Shown: piece by piece, positions 29,917-40,017 of the stretch
Layout: every line of letters starts with the position of its first letter
Position numbering within the stretch: the first letter of the stretch is position 1
Assembly: GCA_021325275.1 (NCBI GenBank)
Contig: JAJPHL010000005.1
Location: forward strand, 1 to 64,000
Direction: 5' to 3'
DNA length: 64,000 bases
Source of the DNA: Terriglobia bacterium
GTDB lineage: Bacteria; Acidobacteriota; Terriglobia; JAJPHL01
Program-made: the position numbers and the translations under genes
The notes under the pieces: model-generated
Told to the model about the DNA's origin: nothing
Databases searched by the model: none
The model's input: the letters and a program-made list of their open reading frames with translations, nothing else

Positions 29917-30729
29917 TTATCTGTGGACCGGATCCGCCACCGTTTGCAGCGCGAGAAACACCAGCACGATCACCACCGCCGGCGCGAGCATCCACGGATA
30001 CGAGGTCAACACTGTGTACTGCTGTAACGGGGTCAGCAGATTTCCCAGCGTCGGCGTGGGATCGGTGATGCCCAGGCCGAGAAACGAGAGATTCACTTCC
30101 GTCAAGATAAACGCCGGCAAGCTCACCAGCATTTGCGCGCGCGCCGCAGGCCAAAGCGCCGGCAAAATGTGCACGAACATGACCCGTCCGGGACGTGCAC
30201 CGAGGGCCCGTGCGGCTTCCACGAAATCCTCGGCCATCAACTTCATCGTGAGACTACGAAAGAGTCGCGCCGGCGCGGCCCAGCCGAGTCCGGCGAGCAA
30301 TCCGAAGAGCGTCAGCGCGGCCGTTGCGGGCGCCATGCGCAGGGGAAGCGCGGCGCGCAGCGCCACCACAAAGTAGAACCAAGGAAGCGCCAGAAAAACT
30401 TCGCTCGCCTTGGTGATCAGCGCATCGGGCCAGCCGCGGCGAGATCCCGCGAGCATTCCTAAGCCCATCGCGATGCCCAACGACACCGCGGCCGCCGCCG
30501 GGGCGAGCAGCAGTGACGCCGAAGCGCCGTAACAGAGTCGCGAGAAGATGTCGCGGCCGAATTCGTCGGTACCCAGCGGAAAAAACGAAGTGCCATGCCG
30601 GCCCGGCGAGGCGTAAGGATAGTCGCGATGCTGCTCGGATGGCGGATAAAGCGCGACGAATCCGGGAGCCAGCGACACGACAAGCGCGATCGCCAGCAGG
30701 GTCCAGGAAACTTTGCGGAGCACGCTCAC
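29917..30729 (-). CDS. ABC transporter permease, DppC-type
   Basis: A 270-residue inner-membrane permease for peptides/nickel-type substrates. A first helix (WTLLAIALVVSLAPGFVALYPP) is followed by HGTSFFPLGTDEFGRDIFSRLCYGASASLLLA, the signature DppC/OppC N-terminal region. The EAA-loop, FVEAARALGARPGRVMFVHILPALWP, and FLGLGITDPTPTLGNLL also fit. The start is GTG 30729, overlapping the upstream permease stop by GTGA; the longer open frame is an artefact of reading through that gene. No ATPase genes follow. Confidence 0.88.
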   Translation of the reverse strand: MSVLRKVSWTLLAIALVVSLAPGFVALYPPSEQHRDYPYASPGRHGTSFFPLGTDEFGRDIFSRLCYGASASLLLAPAAAAVSLGIAMGLGMLAGSRRGWPDALITKASEVFLALPWFYFVVALRAALPLRMAPATAALTLFGLLAGLGWAAPARLFRSLTMKLMAEDFVEAARALGARPGRVMFVHILPALWPAARAQMLVSLPAFILTEVNLSFLGLGITDPTPTLGNLLTPLQQYTVLTSYPWMLAPAVVIVLVFLALQTVADPVHR

Positions 30730-31793
30730 GCGCGCGCCCCTAACCGCGGATCGCTCCAGTACAACAATGCATCGCCGATCAAATTTCCGGCGAGCAACAG
30801 GAGCGCGGCAATCACCGCGAGGTCGGTCACCAGAAAAATGTCGCGCTTCAACACCGCGTCGTAGGCGAGTTGCCCCAAGCCCGGCCATCCCATCACGACT
30901 TCCACAGGAAGCGACGCGCTCAACAGCGCCGAGACGGAAAGTCCAAAATACGCGGCCAGCGGTCCAATCGCGTTGCGAAACGCGTGCGCGACCAGCACAC
31001 GCGCGCTCGACACTCCTTTGGCTCGCGCCGTTGCGATGTACGGCTCGCGCAACGTGCGGTCCAGCGCCGCGCGCGTGTGACGGATCACCACCGGCAGCCA
31101 AGCCAGCGACACGGCGATCACCGGCAGTAGCAAGTGCCGCGACAAATCCACGATGCGCACGCCGAATGCGAGCTCGTCCCAATCGCGCGACGTCATTCCG
31201 CCGACCGGCAATCCCGTTGCGGCCGCCGCCGCGAGCAGCAACAACGCCGCGAGCACCGCGGGCACCGACGCCATCAAAGTAGCGGCGGCGCCCGCCAACC
31301 AGTCGGGCCATCGCGACCGGCGTGGCAGAGACACCAGCAAACTCACGCCGATTCCCATGGTCCACGCGAGCAACAACGCCAGGGAATTGAGCAGCGCGGT
31401 GTTCCACAATCGCGCGCCGATCAAGTCGGCAATCGGCCGCTGATAGACCAGTGAAAATCCCAAATCGCCGTGCGCGGCGTTACGCAACCAATGTAGGTAC
31501 TTGAACGGTAACGGTTGGTCAATTCCGTACTCCGCGCGCAACTGTGCTAGCGTTGTCTGGGATACCTGTGGATTCGCCGCCAGTTCGCTCAGATAGTCTC
31601 CGGGTGCGCGGCCCAACAGGAACAAAGTGAGTACGGGCACCAACAGCGCGACGACGGCCGCGTTTCCCACGCGCGCGGCGAAAAAGCGCCAAGGCGACGC
31701 GTACTCTGCCGTGGTCGCCTCTGATGCGGGGCTCGCCCGATGGTCGTACGGAGTCTCGTACGTGTCCGTGCGTGCTGGATTCGCCGAAGACAT
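30726..31793 (-). CDS. ABC transporter permease, DppB-type
   Basis: A 355-residue permease with an atypical hydrophilic N-terminal 40 residues. Next comes FLLGRAPGDYLSELAANPQ..LRAEYGIDQPLPFKYLHWL, a classic DppB segment. The EAA loop, REPYIATARAKGVSSARVLVAHAFRNA, and VEVVMGWPGLGQLAYDAVLKRD complete the signature. It pairs with the downstream DppC-like protein. The ATG at 31793 is only 11 bp from the divergent sigma-factor ATG, so its promoter must lie in or beyond the sigma coding region, or the true start is downstream. Confidence 0.87.
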   Translation of the reverse strand: MSSANPARTDTYETPYDHRASPASEATTAEYASPWRFFAARVGNAAVVALLVPVLTLFLLGRAPGDYLSELAANPQVSQTTLAQLRAEYGIDQPLPFKYLHWLRNAAHGDLGFSLVYQRPIADLIGARLWNTALLNSLALLLAWTMGIGVSLLVSLPRRSRWPDWLAGAAATLMASVPAVLAALLLLAAAAATGLPVGGMTSRDWDELAFGVRIVDLSRHLLLPVIAVSLAWLPVVIRHTRAALDRTLREPYIATARAKGVSSARVLVAHAFRNAIGPLAAYFGLSVSALLSASLPVEVVMGWPGLGQLAYDAVLKRDIFLVTDLAVIAALLLLAGNLIGDALLYWSDPRLGARA

Positions 31794-31804: not shown

Positions 31805-32455
31805 ATGCCTTCAGCCAGGAGCAACGCTCCGCGCAATTTGTCCAACGCTCCGAGCAATTTGTCCAACGCTCCCAGCCATTGGACCGAAGACCGGCTGGTG
31901 AAAGCTTGCCTCAAGGGCAATCAAGAGGCGTGGTCCGCGCTGGTGGATCGCTACAAGAGCTTGGTGTATTCGGTGGCGCTGAAATATGGACTGGCGGGCG
32001 ACGAGGCGAGCGACGTGTTTCAAGGCGTGTTCTTCGAGTTGCTCTCGCACTTGGGAGAAATCCGCAATCCCAAGGCGTTGCCGAAATGGCTGATCCAAAC
32101 CACGTCGCGCAAATGTTTGGCGGCGCGACGCGGGCAGAATCGCTTCACGTCGATCGAAGAGGACGGCGATGCCCCCGGTGGAGAAGATCGCTTCGGCCAG
32201 CTCGATCCGGCCGTGGGCGAGCAAGCGCTTTTCGACTTTCAGCAGGAACGGAGCTTGACGCAGGCACTCGCGCAGCTCTCCCCGCGCTGCCGCCAGTTGA
32301 TCCACATGTTGTTTTTTGAAACGCCGGCGCGGCCGTATGAGGAAATCGCGCAATCGCTGGGATTGAAAACCGGTTCCATCGGCTTCATCCGCGGGCGCTG
32401 TCTGGAAAAAATGCGCGGCCTTCTGGACCGCGCGGGTTTTGCGAAGGAACTATGA
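31805..32455 (+). CDS. ECF-type RNA polymerase sigma factor
   Basis: A 216-residue sigma-70-like protein. Region 2 reads DRLVKACLKGNQEAWSALVDRYKSLVYSVALKYGL..DVFQGVFFELL..NPKALPKWLIQTTSRKCL. Region 4 reads LAQLSPRCRQLIHMLFFETPARPYEEIAQSLGLKTGSIGFIRGRCLEKMRGLL, a helix-turn-helix. The N-terminus contains a repeated SNAP(R/S)NL heptad from a 21-nt DNA repeat. ATG 31805 was preferred to an upstream in-frame start that would overlap the divergent permease. It overlaps the TPR-CHAT gene by ATGA, so the two are translationally coupled. The group suits a stress or envelope regulon; promoter specificity is unknown. Confidence 0.88.
   Translation: MPSARSNAPRNLSNAPSNLSNAPSHWTEDRLVKACLKGNQEAWSALVDRYKSLVYSVALKYGLAGDEASDVFQGVFFELLSHLGEIRNPKALPKWLIQTTSRKCLAARRGQNRFTSIEEDGDAPGGEDRFGQLDPAVGEQALFDFQQERSLTQALAQLSPRCRQLIHMLFFETPARPYEEIAQSLGLKTGSIGFIRGRCLEKMRGLLDRAGFAKEL
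31822..31880 (+). repeat. 21-nt in-frame tandem repeat in the sigma-factor N-terminus
   Basis: CAACGCTCCGCGCAATTTGTC, varying at one base, begins at 31822 and 31843, with a third partial copy from 31864. It encodes SNAPRNL-SNAPSNL-SNAPSH. In-frame repeats like this can vary in number between strains. Confidence 0.8.
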
Positions 32456-35364
32456 GCAGTGCCAACGACTCTCGAAAGCCCGCGCGTAAGCCCAGCCGGG
32501 CCGCCGAGGATTCCTTCGCCGCGCTGGCCGCGCTGCAAACCGAAGGCGCGCGGCGCGGATTCATTCGCCGGCGCCGCGAACTGCTCACTCCCGAAGTTGT
32601 GGAACGTCTCGCCGACCAAGTGATCCAACGCTTGCGCGTGGATATTCGCGAAGCCATGGGATTAGCCGAAGGCGCCGTCTCGATCGCCGAGGAAATCGGC
32701 GACCGCGTGTCGCAAGCGCGTGGACTGCGCGCCAAGGCCAACGTGCTGTACCTGATGGGACGCAATCAGGAAGCGCTGGCGCTGCACGAAGGCGCGCGCT
32801 CGTTGTTCGAGCAGGCCGGCGCGTGGGAAGAAGTCGGACGCACGCTCAGCGCCAGTCTTCAGCCGATGCTCTTGCTCGGCGAGCACGATCGCGCGCTGGC
32901 CGCCGCGCAACGCGCGCGGGAGATTTTCACGAAGCTAGGCGATCAGCGCCGTCTCGCGCGGCTGGAAATCAACGCCGCGAATATCCTTTTGCGTCAAGAC
33001 CGCTTCGCCGAAGCGCTCGCCGGATACACGCGCGCCTACGAGCAGCTTTTGCCGCGCGGCGAGGTGGAAGGCGTGGCAGTGTCGCTGCACAACATGGCCG
33101 TGTGCCAAATGCTTCTCAACGATTTTCGCGAAGCCATGGCCACGCATCAAAAGGCACGCGAGTATTGCACCGCGCACGACATGCCGCTGCTGGCCGGCCA
33201 AGCCGATTACAACATCGCGTGGCTGCACTATCAACGCGGCGAGTACAGCAAGGCGATCAGCATGCTGCGCGAGGCGCGGGAAATTTGCGAGAAGAACGGC
33301 GATCTCCACCACGTCGCGCTCTGCCATCTCGATCTTTCCGATTTGTACCTGGAGTTGAATCTTTCCTCCGACGCCGGCGAGATGGCGCAGGAAGCGCTCG
33401 AGCGATCCGAGCAACTGGGCATGGGCTACGAAGCGGCGAAAGCGAAGGCCAATCTGGCCATCGCCGCCGGCCAGCAAGGAAAAGCCTTTCGCGCCATCGA
33501 GTTGTTTGTGGAAGCGCGGAAAATGTTCGTGCGCGAGAAGAACGAAGTGTGGGCCTCGCTGCTCGATTTGTATCAAGCGTTGCTCTTGTTCAACGAAGGC
33601 CGGCTGTTTGAATCGAAACGTCTGGCCGCGGCCGCGCTGGAGTTCTTTTCGTCGTCTCAGTTACCCGCCAAAGCAATCCTTTGCCGCTTGCTCCTGGGGC
33701 GGCTGGCCATGCGCACGGGCGAGCAGCGCGAGGCCAACGCGGAATGCCAAGCCGCGCTGGACATTTTGTCGCACACCGAAGCGCCGCTATTGCATGGTCA
33801 AGCGCATTTCTTGATGAGCCAAGTGCGCGAGGCGGAAAAGGATTTTGAGGGCGCCTACGAATCGTGCCGCGAGGCGCGCGCGTCGCTGGAAGCGTTGCGC
33901 AGCAGTCTGCGCGGCGAGGAATTGAAGATTGCGTTCGTGAAAAACAAGCTCGAGGTGTACGAAAGCCTGGTGCATCTTTGCATGGCCCGCGACGCCGATG
34001 GGCCCGAGCGCGACCTGGCGTCGCGCGAGGAAGCCTTCGGCTACATGGAAGAAGCGAAATCACGCGGCCTGCGCGATTTGCTCTTCGGACAAGCGCAGCC
34101 GGCCGCGCCGCCGGTGGAGGAATCGAGCCAAAGCCCGCTGGTGCGGAAGATCCGCAACCTGCGCGACGAGTTGAACTGGTTCTATCACCGGATCGAAACG
34201 GAACAGTTGGCCAAAGAGCAGCGCTCGCCGGAACGCGTCGAGCAATTGCAGGCCCAAGCGCGGTCGCACGAGAACGAATTGTTGCGCGTGTTGCGCGAGG
34301 CTCCGCGCGAAGAAATGGAGCGCCAAGGTTTGACCGCGGAAGCGACCGTAAACCTCGACGTGATCCGCGCGGCGCTGGGTCCCGAGAGCGCGCTGGTGGA
34401 ATATTTCCGCGTGCGCGAACACTTGCTGGCCGCCGTGATCACTGCCGATTCGCTGGAGATCCTGCCTTTGACGCCGGTGAGCCGCATTGCGGGTCTCTTG
34501 CGCTTGCTGCAATTCCAAATCGGAAAATTCCGCATGGGCGGCGGGTATCTCCGCAGCTTCGAGCAGACCTTGATGGCCGCCACGCACGCCCATCTGTATC
34601 AGCTCTACCACGAGCTGATGGAGCCGGTTTGTGCGTCGATTCAAGCCAAACACATTGTGGTAGTGCCGCACGATTTGCTGCACTATCTTCCGTTCCACGC
34701 GCTTTTCGACGGCGCGCAATATCTGATCGACAATTACACGATTTCCTACGCGCCGAGCGCCACGATCTTCGCGCATTGCCAAACCAAGACGCCGGCAACG
34801 TCGGCGTCGAGCCTGGTGATGGGCATTCCCGACGCGAAAGCGCCGGCGATCAGCGAAGAAGTGGCGGCCGTGGCGCGCGAATTGCCGCCGTCGGAGTTGT
34901 TCATCGGCGAGCAAGCGAAGCAAAGCGTGCTGAGCGAGATCGGCGCGCACAGCCGCGTGATCCACATTGCCACGCACGGACATTTCCGCGAGGATAATCC
35001 CATGTTTTCGGGAATCCGCTTGGGCGACGGTCACTTGAGCCTTTACGATCTCTATCGTTTGAAGCTGCCGGCTGACTTGATCACGCTGAGTGGATGCGCC
35101 ACCGGACAAAATGCGCTGGCCGCCGGCGACGAGTTGCTGGGCTTGGTCCGGGGACTGCTCTACGCCGGCGCGCATTCCTTGCTGTTGACAATGTGGGATG
35201 TCCACGACGGCAGCACCACGGAGTTTATGAAGCTGTTCTACCGTCAACTGGCGACGCATCGCGGGAAAGCGCGCGCGGTGCAGGAAGCCGCGAGGACGCT
35301 ACGGGAGCAGTACCCGCATCCCTTCTATTGGGCGCCGTTTTTGCTGGTGGGGAAATACGCGTAG
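32452..35364 (+). CDS. TPR-CHAT protein (caspase-like protease with TPR sensor region)
   Basis: A 970-residue soluble protein. An array of TPRs covers about residues 60-480 (SQARGLRAKANVLYLMGRNQEALALHEGARSLFEQAG and others), then a helical/coiled linker (about 500-620). The CHAT domain follows, with VVPHDLLHYLPFHAL, IHIATHGHF (catalytic His842), ITLSGCATGQ (catalytic Cys882) and GLVRGLLYAGAHSLLLTMWDVHD. CHAT is a clan CD (caspase/separase) peptidase. The His/Cys pair is intact, so activity is expected. It overlaps the sigma gene by 4 bp and precedes a zf-HC2-like gene. By analogy with Csx29 of type III-E CRISPR, which is also TPR-CHAT and cleaves a sigma-binding protein, I infer it controls the neighbouring sigma factor. 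Confidence 0.88.
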   Translation: MSSANDSRKPARKPSRAAEDSFAALAALQTEGARRGFIRRRRELLTPEVVERLADQVIQRLRVDIREAMGLAEGAVSIAEEIGDRVSQARGLRAKANVLYLMGRNQEALALHEGARSLFEQAGAWEEVGRTLSASLQPMLLLGEHDRALAAAQRAREIFTKLGDQRRLARLEINAANILLRQDRFAEALAGYTRAYEQLLPRGEVEGVAVSLHNMAVCQMLLNDFREAMATHQKAREYCTAHDMPLLAGQADYNIAWLHYQRGEYSKAISMLREAREICEKNGDLHHVALCHLDLSDLYLELNLSSDAGEMAQEALERSEQLGMGYEAAKAKANLAIAAGQQGKAFRAIELFVEARKMFVREKNEVWASLLDLYQALLLFNEGRLFESKRLAAAALEFFSSSQLPAKAILCRLLLGRLAMRTGEQREANAECQAALDILSHTEAPLLHGQAHFLMSQVREAEKDFEGAYESCREARASLEALRSSLRGEELKIAFVKNKLEVYESLVHLCMARDADGPERDLASREEAFGYMEEAKSRGLRDLLFGQAQPAAPPVEESSQSPLVRKIRNLRDELNWFYHRIETEQLAKEQRSPERVEQLQAQARSHENELLRVLREAPREEMERQGLTAEATVNLDVIRAALGPESALVEYFRVREHLLAAVITADSLEILPLTPVSRIAGLLRLLQFQIGKFRMGGGYLRSFEQTLMAATHAHLYQLYHELMEPVCASIQAKHIVVVPHDLLHYLPFHALFDGAQYLIDNYTISYAPSATIFAHCQTKTPATSASSLVMGIPDAKAPAISEEVAAVARELPPSELFIGEQAKQSVLSEIGAHSRVIHIATHGHFREDNPMFSGIRLGDGHLSLYDLYRLKLPADLITLSGCATGQNALAAGDELLGLVRGLLYAGAHSLLLTMWDVHDGSTTEFMKLFYRQLATHRGKARAVQEAARTLREQYPHPFYWAPFLLVGKYA

Positions 35365-35506
35365 GGACTATCTCCACGCTAAGCCACTACCGAGCAAGGT
35401 GTCGCACGCGTCCAGCGAACCCAAACCATGGGGCTAGTACGAAAAATCTACCTCAACCCCTATATTTTTCCGACACCTCCACGCTCTTTAGCTCAGGAAG
35501 GAGCCT

Positions 35507-36154
35507 ATGACGCACTATTCGCAAGCCGGTCTCACCGATCTCGCCCGGGGCATCGCCAAGACCCCGGAGGCCGAGATCCACTTGCAGTCTTGCCGGAAAT
35601 GCCGGCGCGATATGGCCGCTTGGGGCGCTTTCGCCCGTTGCGCCCGGCTGGTTGTCGAGAGCAGCACTCAACCGCAGGCGCCCGACGCCGTGGTTCGCAC
35701 GGTAAAGGGCGCCTTCGCCCTGCACCGCCCTCGGAAACATTCCCGCTTGCGACGCTTCGCCACTTTGTTGTTCGATAGTCTCTTGGAACCGGCGACCGTC
35801 GGCGTTCGCGCCGCCGCCCCGGCCATGGGCAGCTCCATCCGTCAGATGTTGTTCCGCTCGGGTTCGGTAGTGGTCGACCTTCGCCTGACTCCGGCCGGCG
35901 CGGGACAAGTGATCCTGGTGGGACAGGTGTTGAACCTGTCGCGGGAAAGTATCGGATCGCCGGCGGTTCGCGTGTTGTTGGAGCGCGGACGTTCGGCATT
36001 GGCGGCCGCCGTCGCCAATGAGTTCGGTGAGTTCGTGTTGGAGTATGCAGAGAAAGATGATTTGCGTTTGCGCCTTGATGTGCTCGGACAGAGTCCGCTG
36101 TTCATTCCCCTCGACGGGGTTTCGAACAGTGCGGGCTTGGTCAGAGCCAGCTAG
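35507..36154 (+). CDS. zf-HC2-like soluble protein, candidate anti-sigma factor
   Basis: A 215-residue protein. Residues about 24-40 read EIHLQSCRKCRRDMAAW, matching the HxxxCxxC zinc-binding pattern of zf-HC2 anti-sigma domains. There is no transmembrane helix. The C-terminal half is beta-rich (VVVDLRLTPAGAGQVILVGQVLNL..RVLLERGRSALAAAVANEFGEFVLEYAEKDDLRLRLDVLG), like a carboxypeptidase-regulatory/transthyretin-type sandwich. Position after sigma and TPR-CHAT suggests a sigma-binding inhibitor and possible CHAT substrate; this is inference. A good GGAAGGAG Shine-Dalgarno precedes the ATG, and a 142-bp gap separates it from the CHAT gene. Confidence 0.6.
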   Translation: MTHYSQAGLTDLARGIAKTPEAEIHLQSCRKCRRDMAAWGAFARCARLVVESSTQPQAPDAVVRTVKGAFALHRPRKHSRLRRFATLLFDSLLEPATVGVRAAAPAMGSSIRQMLFRSGSVVVDLRLTPAGAGQVILVGQVLNLSRESIGSPAVRVLLERGRSALAAAVANEFGEFVLEYAEKDDLRLRLDVLGQSPLFIPLDGVSNSAGLVRAS

Positions 36155-36288
36155 TAAGTTCCCGAGGTCCCACCCCAGGATCTTCACCCTTGGGAGGTAC
36201 CTCTGTACCATAGACTTGGACCGGCTGACGGCTCCATCATGAAAAGGCTCATGAAGGGGTTCTCTCAGCCCGTAGAATGGGGCTCTAT

Positions 36289-37629
36289 ATGATGTCACTT
36301 CGCAAGTTCTGGGCGGTAGTCGTTCTAGTTTGCGCCTTGGGGGGCAGCGCCACTGCCCAAAGCCGTTTCATCGTGCGCGAAACCCTCGGTGCGGGTGTTC
36401 TCAACTTGGTCTGCGGCCTGCTCGGCTGCTCGGTCAATGGATCGCTGGGCGATCCCCAGGGACAACTTTTCTCCGTCACCGGCCCGCTCGGATCCACGAT
36501 TGCCTTTTTGGACAAGCTGCTGGGCGCGTTGGGTATCGTAGACGCGGAAGTGGACCAGTTGGTGGGCGTCGCGCAATCGACGCAACCCACGGCTTCCGCC
36601 TCGACGCCGGGACTGTACGACACCACGCTGGTGAACTACTACGGGACTTCGGTGTGGCGCGGCTACGTGAATCAACCGGCCGCCGGCATTGTCAACTTGC
36701 CGAAGGTGCAGCAGGGCATGGGCCTGACCGGCAAGGGCATCGTGGCAGTGATCGACACGGGCGTCGATCCCACGCATCCGATGCTGCAAACCGTAGTGCT
36801 GCCGGGCTACGATTTCACGCGCAATCAAGCCAACGCCAACGAAACCAACGATCTCGATCACTCCTCGGCCGCCGTGCTCGACAGCAACACGAACGATCCT
36901 AGCGCGCAGCCGATCATACTCGATCACTCCTCGGCCGCGGTTCTCGATCATTCTTCGGCCGCGGTCCTGGACAACACGCAGTATCAAGCGTTCGGTCACG
37001 GCACCAGCGCCGCCGGTGTGATTCACTTGGTCGCGCCGCAGGCGCAGATCTTACCCTTGAAAGCATTTAACTCCCAGGGCGGTGCGAATCTCTCGGACAT
37101 CGTGCGCGCCGTCTACTACGCCACGTCGCACAAAGCTAACGTGATCAGCATGAGCTTCAGCTTCCCGGCGTATTCCCTTGAAATGCACACGGCGCTGAAG
37201 TACGCCAATTCCAACGGCCTGATCTCGGTGGCCGCCGCCGGCAACGACGGCGCCAAGGAATTGGCGTATCCCGCCAGCTACACCGATATCGTGATCGGCG
37301 TGGGATCCACCAACAATCTGGATCAGCGTTCGGTGTTCTCGAATTACGGATCGCAAACCGTGTTTATGGCCGCGCCGGGAGAAAATATCGTGACGGCGTA
37401 TCCGTTCAACACCTACGCGGCTTGCTCCGGCACGTCGTTCTCGACACCGATGGTGGCGGGCGCCGCGGCACTGGGCTTGAGCATTCACTCCGGCAACGAG
37501 AGCACGGCCACGAGCGCGCTGCAACATGCCGTCTCCGTCGATCCGACGCTCAATCACGGTCGCCTGGATCTTTATCAAGCGATGCAAGCGTGGAACTCCT
37601 CGGGCCTGCTCGGCGGCTTGTTCCATTAA
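36289..37629 (+). CDS. Secreted subtilisin-like serine protease (S8) with internal repeat
   Basis: A 446-residue exported protease. The signal peptide is SLRKFWAVVVLVCALGGSATAQ, and residues about 25-110 form a propeptide-like region. The triad is Asp156 (AVIDTGVD), His237 (FGHGTSAAG) and Ser383 (CSGTSFSTPMVAG), with oxyanion Asn in AAAGNDG. Between Asp and His, LDHSSAAVLD occurs three times (from about residues 189, 211 and 219). ATG 36289 or 36292 is likely, because the upstream ATG at 36277 overlaps a TAGAAT hexamer (36273-36278). It follows the zf-HC2-like gene in the same direction and may be an effector of the sigma module. Confidence 0.88.
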   Translation: MMSLRKFWAVVVLVCALGGSATAQSRFIVRETLGAGVLNLVCGLLGCSVNGSLGDPQGQLFSVTGPLGSTIAFLDKLLGALGIVDAEVDQLVGVAQSTQPTASASTPGLYDTTLVNYYGTSVWRGYVNQPAAGIVNLPKVQQGMGLTGKGIVAVIDTGVDPTHPMLQTVVLPGYDFTRNQANANETNDLDHSSAAVLDSNTNDPSAQPIILDHSSAAVLDHSSAAVLDNTQYQAFGHGTSAAGVIHLVAPQAQILPLKAFNSQGGANLSDIVRAVYYATSHKANVISMSFSFPAYSLEMHTALKYANSNGLISVAAAGNDGAKELAYPASYTDIVIGVGSTNNLDQRSVFSNYGSQTVFMAAPGENIVTAYPFNTYAACSGTSFSTPMVAGAAALGLSIHSGNESTATSALQHAVSVDPTLNHGRLDLYQAMQAWNSSGLLGGLFH

Positions 37630-37653: not shown

Positions 37654-38346
37654 ATGGGCCTTCGTCAACTCACTCTAAATGCGTCGGACTCCGTCCTGGC
37701 TCCGACGCTGCGGATCAAGGAACTCGAGGAGCGCATGGACTCCATGCACACCGCCTTGATCTGCGCGCTGAATCAGCTTCTCGATCTGAAGGATCTCAAC
37801 ACCGGTTTCCACTCCACGCGCTTGGCCGAATGGGCCGTGCGCGTGGCGCAGGAAATGGGCATGGACGAATCGTCGCTGCACAACTTGGAAGTGGCAGCGC
37901 TGCTCCACGACATCGGCAAGATGGGCATTCCCGATTCCATCCTGCAAAAGCCCGCACGACTCACCGCCGACGAATACGACGTGATGAAGAAGCACCCCGA
38001 ATACGGTTGGGGCGCAATTCGCTTGTTCCCCACGATGGAGCGCGCCAGTCTTTTCATCCTGCATCATCACGAAGGATACGACGGCAAGGGCTATCCGGCG
38101 GGATTGCGCGGCTCGGAGATTCCCGTGGGATCGCGCATTGTATCGGTGATCGATAGCTTCGACGCCATGGTGTCGTCGCGGCCCTACCGCAAGGGACTGC
38201 CGTTTGAGGAAGCGATGCGCCGCTTGAAGGACGCGAGCGGCACGCAATTCGATCCCGCCGTGGTGCAGTGCTTCACCCGAATCGCGCGGCCGGAGATGGA
38301 AAACGTCTTCGCCGCGACCGGAACCACGTCCGCAGTGGTAATCTAA
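37654..38346 (+). CDS. HD-GYP domain phosphodiesterase
   Basis: A 230-residue soluble protein, nearly a bare HD-GYP domain with a short N-terminal helix. The HD pair is His85-Asp86 (LLHDIGKMGIPD), then His114 (KKHPEYG), HHHE at 137-140 and the GYP at 146-148 (YDGKGYPAGL); VSVIDSFDAMVSSRPYRKG is also conserved. HD-GYP enzymes hydrolyse c-di-GMP (some 3',3'-cGAMP) at a metal centre, and all ligands look intact. The Shine-Dalgarno GAGGAAG is well placed 24 bp after the subtilase stop, consistent with co-transcription. Confidence 0.88.
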   Translation: MGLRQLTLNASDSVLAPTLRIKELEERMDSMHTALICALNQLLDLKDLNTGFHSTRLAEWAVRVAQEMGMDESSLHNLEVAALLHDIGKMGIPDSILQKPARLTADEYDVMKKHPEYGWGAIRLFPTMERASLFILHHHEGYDGKGYPAGLRGSEIPVGSRIVSVIDSFDAMVSSRPYRKGLPFEEAMRRLKDASGTQFDPAVVQCFTRIARPEMENVFAATGTTSAVVI

Positions 38347-38358
38347 GCGGGCGTTCCA

Positions 38359-40017
38359 ATGCGCTTCCCCCGACTTTTCCGGGTACTTTCTCTTGGCGTG
38401 TTGTGTGTCGCCGCATCGGCGCAAAAATCCGGCGGCGTGGTCACGGTCGCCGCGGGCGCGGAGCCCAAAACTTTCAATCCGCTGATCGCGGCCGATCAAC
38501 CGTCGCGCGACGCCATCTATCCGCTCAGCGCCGATCTCATCCATTTGAATCGCGTGACACTGAAGACCGAGCCGGCGCTCGCCAAAGACTGGACGGTATC
38601 GCCCGACGGGAAACACTACGTCGTAAGACTGCGTGAAGGACTAAAATTCTCCGACGGATCGCCGCTCACCGCCGACGACGTGGTCTTCACGTTTCAACTC
38701 CATCTTGATCCCAAGGTCAATTCCACGCAGCGAGACACGCTGCTCGTGGACGACAAACCAATCGGCGTGGTAAGAGTTTCCGCCGACACCGTGCGATTCG
38801 ATTTTCCCGCGCCCTACGCGCCGGGGGAAACGATCTTCGATGGTGTTTGGATTTTGCCGCGTGCCAAGCTCGAGAAGGCTTATCGCGAGGGACATATCGG
38901 TGAAGCGTGGAACACCGCCGCAGCCGGCGTCACCGGTGCGGGACCGTTTCGATTGAAGCAATACCTGCCGGGCGAGCGGCTGGTTCTGGAGCGCAATCCG
39001 TTTTACTGGAAAAAAGATTCCGGCGGACGCTCGCTACCGTATCTCGATCGCCTGGAGTACAGTTTTGCCGCCGACGCCAACGCGCAAATGCTGCGGTTGC
39101 GCGCGGGTGAGGCGGACATTCTGCCGCGCTTGCGCGCCGATGACGCCGCGGCCGTCGCGGCGCTCGACGGCTTGCGCGTGCACGACGGCGGCCCCAGCCT
39201 TGAGTACAACTTCATCGCGTTCAACTGGAACACCACGGGTCCCGCGCGCGCGTGGTTTCGCAATCTGGCGTTTCGCCGCGCCGTGGCGCATGCCATCGAT
39301 CGCGATGCGATTGTCAAACTGGTTTATCAAAGCAAAGCTTCGCCGATTTGGTCGCACGTCACTCCTGGAAATCGCGCTTGGCACAGCGAAAAGGTCACGC
39401 AATACGCGCACGACCCGGCGCGGGCGTCCGCGTTGTTGCGCGACGCCGGCTTTACGCGCGACGCGTCGGGGACGCTCCACGATCCCGAAGGCCACGCGGT
39501 GGAGTTTACCCTGATGGTCTCGGCCAGCAACGCGGCGCGGCGCAAGATGGCCACCATCGTCGAGGAAGATTTGGCCGCCGTCGGCATTCGCGCGCACTCC
39601 ACGCCGACCGAATTCTCGTCGATGGTGGAAAGCGTGCTGCACGCCGGAAAATACGAAGCGGCGCTGTGGGGCGTGGCCGGCGGCGACCCCGATCCCAGCT
39701 CCGACGCCAACGTTTGGGAAGCGTCGGGCAATCTGCATATGTGGAATTTGCGCTTGAAAGACCAGCCCGCGCCAAAGCTCGAGCCCTGGGAAGCGGAAGT
39801 CGACAGACTCGTACAAGCGCAAGCGACCATCGCGTCGGCCAGCGACCGCCGCGCCGCCATCGACAAAGTGCAGGAGCTGGTGTCGGCGAATCTCCCCGTA
39901 GTTTTCCTGGTGAGTCCGCACGTGCTGGCGGCCTCGCGCACGGCGATTGGTGGATTTACTCCGGCCATCGTGGAACCGGTCGCGCTGTGGAATTGCGAAC
40001 GCTGGTTCCGTCAGTGA
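38359..40017 (+). CDS. ABC transporter substrate-binding protein family 5 (DppA/OppA-like)
   Basis: A 552-residue periplasmic protein with signal peptide (FRVLSLGVLCVAASAQ). Family 5 features are GAEPKTFNPLI, LAKDWTVSPDGKHYVVRLREGLKFSDGSPLTADDVVFTFQ, GAGPFRLKQYLPGERLVLERNPFYW and FAYDPARA-type helices (YAHDPARASALLRDAGF). It binds peptides or similar ligands. It is 12 bp after the HD-GYP gene. Two cognate-type permeases lie 7 kb away on the other side of the sigma-CHAT block, divergently oriented, and could be partners, but no ATPase is present. Confidence 0.88.
   Translation: MRFPRLFRVLSLGVLCVAASAQKSGGVVTVAAGAEPKTFNPLIAADQPSRDAIYPLSADLIHLNRVTLKTEPALAKDWTVSPDGKHYVVRLREGLKFSDGSPLTADDVVFTFQLHLDPKVNSTQRDTLLVDDKPIGVVRVSADTVRFDFPAPYAPGETIFDGVWILPRAKLEKAYREGHIGEAWNTAAAGVTGAGPFRLKQYLPGERLVLERNPFYWKKDSGGRSLPYLDRLEYSFAADANAQMLRLRAGEADILPRLRADDAAAVAALDGLRVHDGGPSLEYNFIAFNWNTTGPARAWFRNLAFRRAVAHAIDRDAIVKLVYQSKASPIWSHVTPGNRAWHSEKVTQYAHDPARASALLRDAGFTRDASGTLHDPEGHAVEFTLMVSASNAARRKMATIVEEDLAAVGIRAHSTPTEFSSMVESVLHAGKYEAALWGVAGGDPDPSSDANVWEASGNLHMWNLRLKDQPAPKLEPWEAEVDRLVQAQATIASASDRRAAIDKVQELVSANLPVVFLVSPHVLAASRTAIGGFTPAIVEPVALWNCERWFRQ

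Follow-up and report, generated by a model that had tools for sequence, protein, structure and literature searches.

The window, a 64,000-nucleotide stretch of a Terriglobia bacterium contig, contains a run of genes on the forward strand (+) that begins with an ECF sigma factor gene (31805-32455; 216 aa), in whose product regions r2 and r4 are matched by Pfam (4e-9 and 6e-7) and by TIGR02937 (1.5e-19). A short tandem DNA repeat at 31811-31880 encodes NAPSNLS repeats at the N-terminus of this sigma factor. As stated in the preliminary description, the gene overlaps by ATGA with the following one (32452-35364, +; 970 aa; PF12770, 1.1e-59), which encodes a TPR-CHAT protease. A conserved, bipartite, promoter-like element, CCCTATATTTTTCCGACACCTCCACGCTCTTTAG (35458-35491, +), lies 5' of a gene for a predicted soluble zinc anti-sigma (ZAS) protein with a C-terminal beta-sandwich (35507-36154, +; 215 aa), of which codons 100-102 (35804-35812, +) encode the Arg101 loop, a candidate cleavage or docking site. 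This is followed by a gene for an S8 subtilase with a predicted export signal (36277-37629, +; 450 aa; PF00082, 8.5e-33), in which the peptide HSSAAVLD is encoded once at 36859-36882 (+) and twice in direct succession, HSSAAVLD-HSSAAVLD, at 36925-36972 (+), and by genes for an HD-GYP c-di-GMP phosphodiesterase-like protein (37654-38346, +; HD_5, 1.8e-41) and for SBP5, a peptide-binding protein of the OppA/DppA type (38359-40017, +; SBP_bac_5, 1.8e-86). These domain matches agree with the identities that had been proposed for the three neighbours. On the reverse strand (-), divergent from the sigma gene, lie genes for an OppB-type permease (30726-31793; BPD_transp_1, 8.1e-27) and an OppC-type permease (29917-30730, start approximate; BPD_transp_1, 1.9e-20, in the open frame 29917-31407).

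The unit of sigma (SIG), TPR-CHAT and ZAS genes is no chance neighbourhood and is conserved across Acidobacteriota. A search of 299 genomes of the class with the ZAS protein gave matches in 84 and, seen from ZAS, the three genes lie on one strand in 34 of 41 class loci and in 11 of 12 loci outside the class, where the order is always SIG-ZAS-CHAT and ZAS directly follows the sigma gene in the 11 trio-bearing loci. The linkage in Acidobacteriota relatives, on which the preliminary description had staked its proposal, is thus kept. A second set of 80 loci on GTDB contigs was seeded independently from a TPR-CHAT alignment; as these are the best 80 of 508 loci, the set leans towards close relatives of the query. 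Among these best 80 of 508 loci, SIG adjoins CHAT in 72/75 when seen from CHAT, ZAS lies at most 1.5 kb from CHAT in 62/70, the S8 subtilase accompanies CHAT in 49/59, HD-GYP belongs to the unit in 37 of the 53 relatives with enough sequence, and SBP5 is found upstream of the sigma gene, directly 5', in 55 of 66 relatives. The usual order in relatives, both in the ZAS-seeded neighbourhoods and in the 80 TPR-CHAT-seeded loci, is SBP5-SIG-CHAT-ZAS-S8-HDGYP, and in 57 of about 73 loci the SIG and CHAT reading frames share 4 nt or 1 nt. The window departs from this arrangement: SBP5 is found downstream and, with the permease genes running divergently, the transporter is linked in another layout. 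ZAS-S8-HDGYP and SIG-CHAT are found on different contigs in the sister genome G001. Taken together, SIG, TPR-CHAT and ZAS almost certainly form a functional trio.

Several unusual arrangements were also seen. Locus L194 (3850-8087) has a TPR-CHAT gene, a gene for a beta-domain-only protein and a subtilase gene in a row, without sigma factor or zinc domain, and in L056 (3044-9774) the anti-sigma gene is present three times in tandem around another subtilase gene. In L172 (6798-9962), a peptide-binding protein and an ECF sigma factor share one open frame, which is either a fusion or an assembly artefact. L144, a contig labelled Betaproteobacteria, has the whole unit and probably comes from a mislabelled bin.

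By family and predicted fold, the 215-aa protein is a soluble ZAS anti-sigma protein. The zf-HC2-like motif that had been described in it is present as H25-L-Q-S-C29-R-K-C32, with a spacing that differs from the HxxxxCxxC found in most relatives, and the window's protein on its own has no Pfam match at E<1. Its assignment comes from the family as a whole, where conserved ligands, profile matches and a predicted four-helix fold agree with the earlier zf-HC2-like call. In the family alignment of 60 sequences, the zinc ligands H3, C29 and C32 are conserved in all 60 and H25 in 59, an arrangement that resembles that of ChrR, and H25, C29 and C32 are kept in 16 of the 17 letters from outside the class. 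Searched against all PDB sequences, the family profile found, besides one beta-domain match, mainly anti-sigma domains, namely RsiW (1.8e-4), RslA (9e-4; an entry named only as a conserved membrane protein, which we take to be RslA) and ChrR (0.09); no Csx30 chain was found. Single ZAS members searched at E up to 1 matched zf-HC2 in 9/60 cases and CarboxypepD_reg in 19/60. The AlphaFold2 model of ZAS (pLDDT 84) places four helices (6-13, 20-28, 30-52 and 60-72) in residues 1-72, followed by a disordered linker and the beta-sandwich. With VIA-align, ChrR matches residues 1-71 with a Z of 6.8 over 68 residues, but with an rmsd of 11.1, and a Foldseek search with the ZAS model returned common beta-sandwiches only, at E above 0.001. 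The protein thus resembles ChrR, RsrA and RshA in its predicted His-His-Cys-Cys zinc site and four-helix domain, and ChrR also in having a fused C-terminal domain. It differs from them in that this domain is a carboxypeptidase-regulatory-like beta-sandwich rather than a cupin, and in being partnered with a TPR-CHAT protease. We consider it highly probable that ZAS is the anti-sigma factor of the neighbouring ECF sigma factor.

The most invariant residue of the ZAS family is Arg101, which lies in a loop of the form FDSxxxPxxxGxR and is an Arg in 140 of 141 letters, and in 19/19 outside the class. In the AlphaFold2 model, residues 101-110 form a low-confidence loop (pLDDT around 60). Conservation and model together make the loop a candidate cleavage or docking site. 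The ZAS beta-sandwich is also found fused to a receiver-like domain (L102:8398-9204, L146:1341-2126, L200:2355-3173 and L203:5570-8968), usually encoded before a subtilase gene and with no sigma or CHAT gene seen beside it. As these proteins also carry the Arg101 loop in the absence of a nearby CHAT gene, the loop may be structural.

In the TPR-CHAT protein, the TPR array covers residues of about 65-484 and the CHAT domain residues 715-968. The catalytic dyad had been reported as intact, and His842 (THG) and Cys882 (SGC) are indeed present; the dyad is invariant, both in 49/49 proteins of the class and in all outgroup proteins that are complete. PF12770 scores 202.7 bits against a curated cut-off of 24, which places the protein in the CHAT family. 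The AlphaFold2 model (pLDDT 86.6, pTM 0.82) finds its closest folds in Csx29 (Z 30-32; about 30 over residues 244-970) and separase, and among PDB sequences the CHAT region matches Csx29 proteins only. Membership of the Csx29 family itself was rejected, NF041237 (NCBIfam) scoring 53.9 bits against a cut-off of 300. The TPR array (82-443) resembles the Rap and NprR peptide receptors with a Z of about 29 over 350 residues; as other TPR proteins score 24-28, with generic matches such as MalT and LGN at 24-26, this likeness is weak by itself. Foldseek also aligns the Myxococcus protein DdvA (8rot, 8rw5) along the TPR-CHAT model with a TM of 0.45-0.49. DdvA is the anti-sigma factor of the ECF factor DdvS (PMC4374960) and differs in being a single transmembrane protein. 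We carry the cutting of ZAS by the CHAT protease as a candidate step, for which the chances appear evenly balanced.

The bipartite element has the form CCTATATTTTT-N13-CCCTTAT and is found 5' of the anti-sigma gene in 64/68 loci, compared with 0.2 in shuffles. Its CCTATATTTTT and CCCTTAT blocks, separated by about 13 bases, have an information content of 1.6 and 1.4 bits per base, the spacer and flanks 0.1-0.3 (49 dissimilar sequences), and in the window the element lies between CHAT and ZAS. A matrix scan of 4.76 Mb on both strands found 87 sites before ZAS genes and 15 in other places, and the reversed matrix gave 0; since the matrix was trained on ZAS-upstream sites, the count of 87 is partly built in, which does not hold for the low count elsewhere. 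The genome of the organism has a single exact match to the element, at 35460 of the window, and a regulon search that allowed two mismatches did not rise above background outside the locus, with 11 sites compared with 12 in the control. The element stays with ZAS wherever this gene lies: variants are present where ZAS directly follows the sigma gene, and in G001 it is retained on the contig that holds ZAS-S8-HDGYP. Because of this behaviour and the ECF-like geometry, we regard the element as a putative promoter that is likely used by the sigma factor. The subtilase and HD-GYP genes had been proposed to code for targets of the protease or for co-regulated effectors. Lying behind a conserved element that is unique in the genome, they look like outputs rather than cleavage targets, and an exported subtilase is not expected to be cut by a cytosolic protease. 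Some of the extra element sites in relatives precede genes for secreted proteins, namely a second subtilase, a 413-aa protein and a 145-aa protein. The last of these is conserved and, it appears, secreted; with a length of about 145 aa, it is encoded 5' of the opp genes, and the element precedes its gene in four loci (L133:2978, L136:2851, L139:2864 and L127:2838). In subgroups of loci (L103-L182), CGTACCATTG or GATTACCGGTGTAAG motifs recur 5' of the subtilase gene and possibly represent a second promoter or a regulator site.

The subtilase has its motifs DTGVD at 160, GHGT at 240 and GTSFS at 385, and a hydrophobic segment before an RFIVR block, which we read as the export signal, is present in 27/27 relatives tested. 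The three HSSAAVLD copies of the window's protein lie between the catalytic Asp and His, and DNA encoding this peptide is found nowhere else in the organism's genome. The 8-residue repeat differs in sequence between species. Exact repetition of 6 or more residues between Asp and His is found in 97 of 113 subtilases and in 0 of 113 control regions of equal length. Among 94 proteins with at least two units, the copies are identical within the protein in 91%, compared with 6.8% (maximum 18%) after shuffling, and in 15 dissimilar proteins copy identity is 87% within and 1.4% between proteins. At the DNA level, on average 4.5 of the 8 codons differ between copies, and no protein has copies of identical DNA. 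Selection at the peptide level thus seems to maintain the likeness of the copies, which recent slippage does not explain. Among the subtilases fetched with the outside-class loci, an exact repeat is present only in L223, so that the peptide part of the circuit may not extend over the whole phylum. A separate small gene for a peptide precursor was looked for and none was found; the repeats lie inside the subtilase instead. One subtilase carries about 10 tandem copies of QSTVSLLN (L164 and L058; subtilase gene at L058:14492-16099).

The preliminary description had left the ligand of the TPR sensor unspecified. The Opp-type transporter, the RRNPP-like TPR array and the subtilase repeats together suggest that it may be a peptide. 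In a comparison of 48 loci, the distance between peptides correlates with the distance between TPR arrays with a partial r of 0.50 (0/300 permutations) once CHAT, SBP5 and subtilase-core distances have been removed, and the corresponding values are 0.20 (weak) for SBP5, -0.21 for CHAT and -0.03 for the subtilase core. When 61 loci were analysed in windows of 60 columns, the signal peaked at columns 40-280, in the N-terminal TPR half, with r up to 0.47, whereas 50 windows in other proteins gave at most 0.23. Rate does not explain this peak, since divergence is the same (0.50) in both TPR halves, N- and C-terminal. In 30 disjoint pairs, with divergence taken relative to background, the N-terminal half scores 0.75 where the two peptides are the same and 1.04 where they differ (p 0.0001), the same-peptide pairs being closer relatives as well; CHAT divergence is unchanged, and the C-terminal TPR half shows the effect too (p 0.001). 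The correlation is significant when peptides are permuted within broader clusters (0/500) and not significant when they are permuted within the tightest clusters only (121/500), and the receptor test was devised after the repeats had been seen. We take these sequence comparisons as a strong suggestion, not proof, that the peptide varies in step with the N-terminal TPR half and not with the catalytic domain. That the 8-residue peptide is read by the TPR array of the CHAT protein is a proposition we place just short of an even chance.

One might argue instead that the repeats are structural, forming two or more identical beta-strands that pair within or between molecules, and that the operon serves peptide scavenging and is controlled by an ordinary ECF pair. 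The position of the repeats within the catalytic domain, between Asp and His and beside conserved sequence, fits such a role, and an Opp transporter together with a protease would fit nutrition. Homotypic pairing leaves unexplained, however, why the peptide changes along with the N-terminal TPR half of another protein rather than with the subtilase core, and we consider this explanation unlikely, if still a serious one.

We regard a chromosomal, peptide-triggered, CHAT-released sigma switch without CRISPR as the best explanation of the locus and give it an even chance, with binding, cleavage and sensing all being inferred steps. The soluble ZAS protein would hold the ECF sigma factor inactive. 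Outside the cell, the 8-residue repeats of the secreted subtilase would be released as peptides, which would be imported by the neighbouring Opp-type transporter. In the cytosol, the peptide would be bound by the N-terminal TPR half and turn on TPR-CHAT, which would then cut ZAS, probably in the linker or in the loop around Arg101. The freed sigma factor would transcribe from the CCTATATTTTT-N13-CCCTTAT element and give rise to new ZAS, which resets the switch, as well as to the secreted subtilase and the HD-GYP phosphodiesterase. We hold only tentatively, and with somewhat less than even confidence, to the fullest version, in which the subtilase is both an output and the multi-copy precursor of the signal, the peptide is imported by Opp, TPR-CHAT frees the sigma factor to make more subtilase and Craspase is a relative whose sensor has been replaced.

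It is also conceivable that ZAS is an anti-sigma factor released by a conformational change at its own zinc site or beta-sandwich, as in ChrR or RsrA, and that TPR-CHAT is co-expressed and has other targets. Such a release would fit the ZAS fold and its ChrR match, the presence in L093 of a sigma-ZAS pair without an adjoining CHAT gene, and the observation that the signals to which soluble ZAS factors respond are usually cytoplasmic ones (PMC8999054). It accords poorly with the fact that CHAT is part of the unit almost everywhere, translationally coupled to the sigma factor and with its dyad kept, so that we judge it rather improbable. An explanation built on the SIG-CHAT pair could draw on this being the tightest pair (the 72/75 among the best 80 of 508 loci) and on its staying together in G001 though ZAS is elsewhere. 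A zinc anti-sigma protein is nevertheless present, encoded directly after the sigma factor outside the class, and it is the ZAS gene that carries the conserved element, which makes this explanation very unlikely. Least probable of all is an anti-phage or abortive-infection module in which CHAT acts as a death or defence protease like Craspase: CHAT shares its fold with Csx29, but the matches from PADLOC were weak and partial (CHAT to BovA, and a generic subtilase model), with nothing convincing for sigma, ZAS or CHAT, and the unit is phylum-wide, accompanied by a peptide transporter and an exported subtilase and without any CRISPR part.

The proposed peptide-triggered switch shares its three roles with Craspase (also CASP; Csx29, Csx30 and CASP-sigma), a TPR-CHAT protease, an inhibitor of the sigma factor and an ECF sigma factor. 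It differs in being without Cas7-11, crRNA and RNA trigger, and in its inhibitor, which is a ZAS protein with a beta-sandwich. A type III-E system was rejected for the genome of the organism (97.6% complete), in which no Cas7-11 was found and the sole RAMP match lies on contig C7, in an open frame of 243 aa, in agreement with the earlier statement that the switch is without CRISPR. This RAMP-family gene (G000:C7:56181-56741, L204) is perhaps part of another type III system. A second comparison is offered by CalpL, which we take to be a SAVED-Lon protease triggered by cyclic oligoadenylate, its system consisting of proteins unrelated to those of our unit. In CalpL-CalpT-CalpS of type III CRISPR, the sigma factor is released through the action of a protease (PMC11417357, PMC12751052), as is proposed here. 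In the type III-E system of Craspase, sigma motifs are found in its own locus too (PMC10028731), and in the literature that we searched, CHAT and ECF sigma were joined by those words for Craspase only (PMC10028731). With RRNPP receptors such as Rap and NprR and their Opp import, the unit shares a peptide transporter and short peptides, and perhaps the kind of TPR array, which is of matching size; it differs in that the output is a CHAT protease and that the peptides are repeats in a subtilase and not the product of a small separate precursor gene.

A review (PMC8999054) gives the group ECF54 CHAT, subtilase and carboxypeptidase neighbours and mentions the proposal that proteolysis regulates it, with no anti-sigma factor involved. 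The CHAT, subtilase and carboxypeptidase-like context of our unit fits that of its actinobacterial model member, a likeness of gene context alone, whereas a predicted zinc anti-sigma domain is present here. Three actinobacterial loci with sigma matches bear on this comparison. In Nonomuraea (L265), a related sigma factor is accompanied by CHAT, a weak subtilase match and a small protein that matches positions 51-146 of the ZAS profile and is partial, without the zinc motif. In the other two, Streptomyces (L266) and Miltoncostaea (L267), no ZAS-like neighbour was found; in Miltoncostaea a subtilase gene adjoins the sigma gene.

Taken together, we describe a previously undescribed gene circuit of soil Acidobacteriota that apparently switches on a repeat-bearing secreted protease. 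If the proposed mechanism is true, the unit would be a CRISPR-free chromosomal counterpart of the protease-sigma relay of Craspase and a possible ancestor of its three roles, and ZAS would be the anti-sigma factor that an ECF54-like group was believed to lack. Acidobacteriota are abundant in soil, and little is known of how their cells signal to one another; the unit would add a peptide-based signalling system in this phylum, in which the exact sequence of the signal is predicted for each species.
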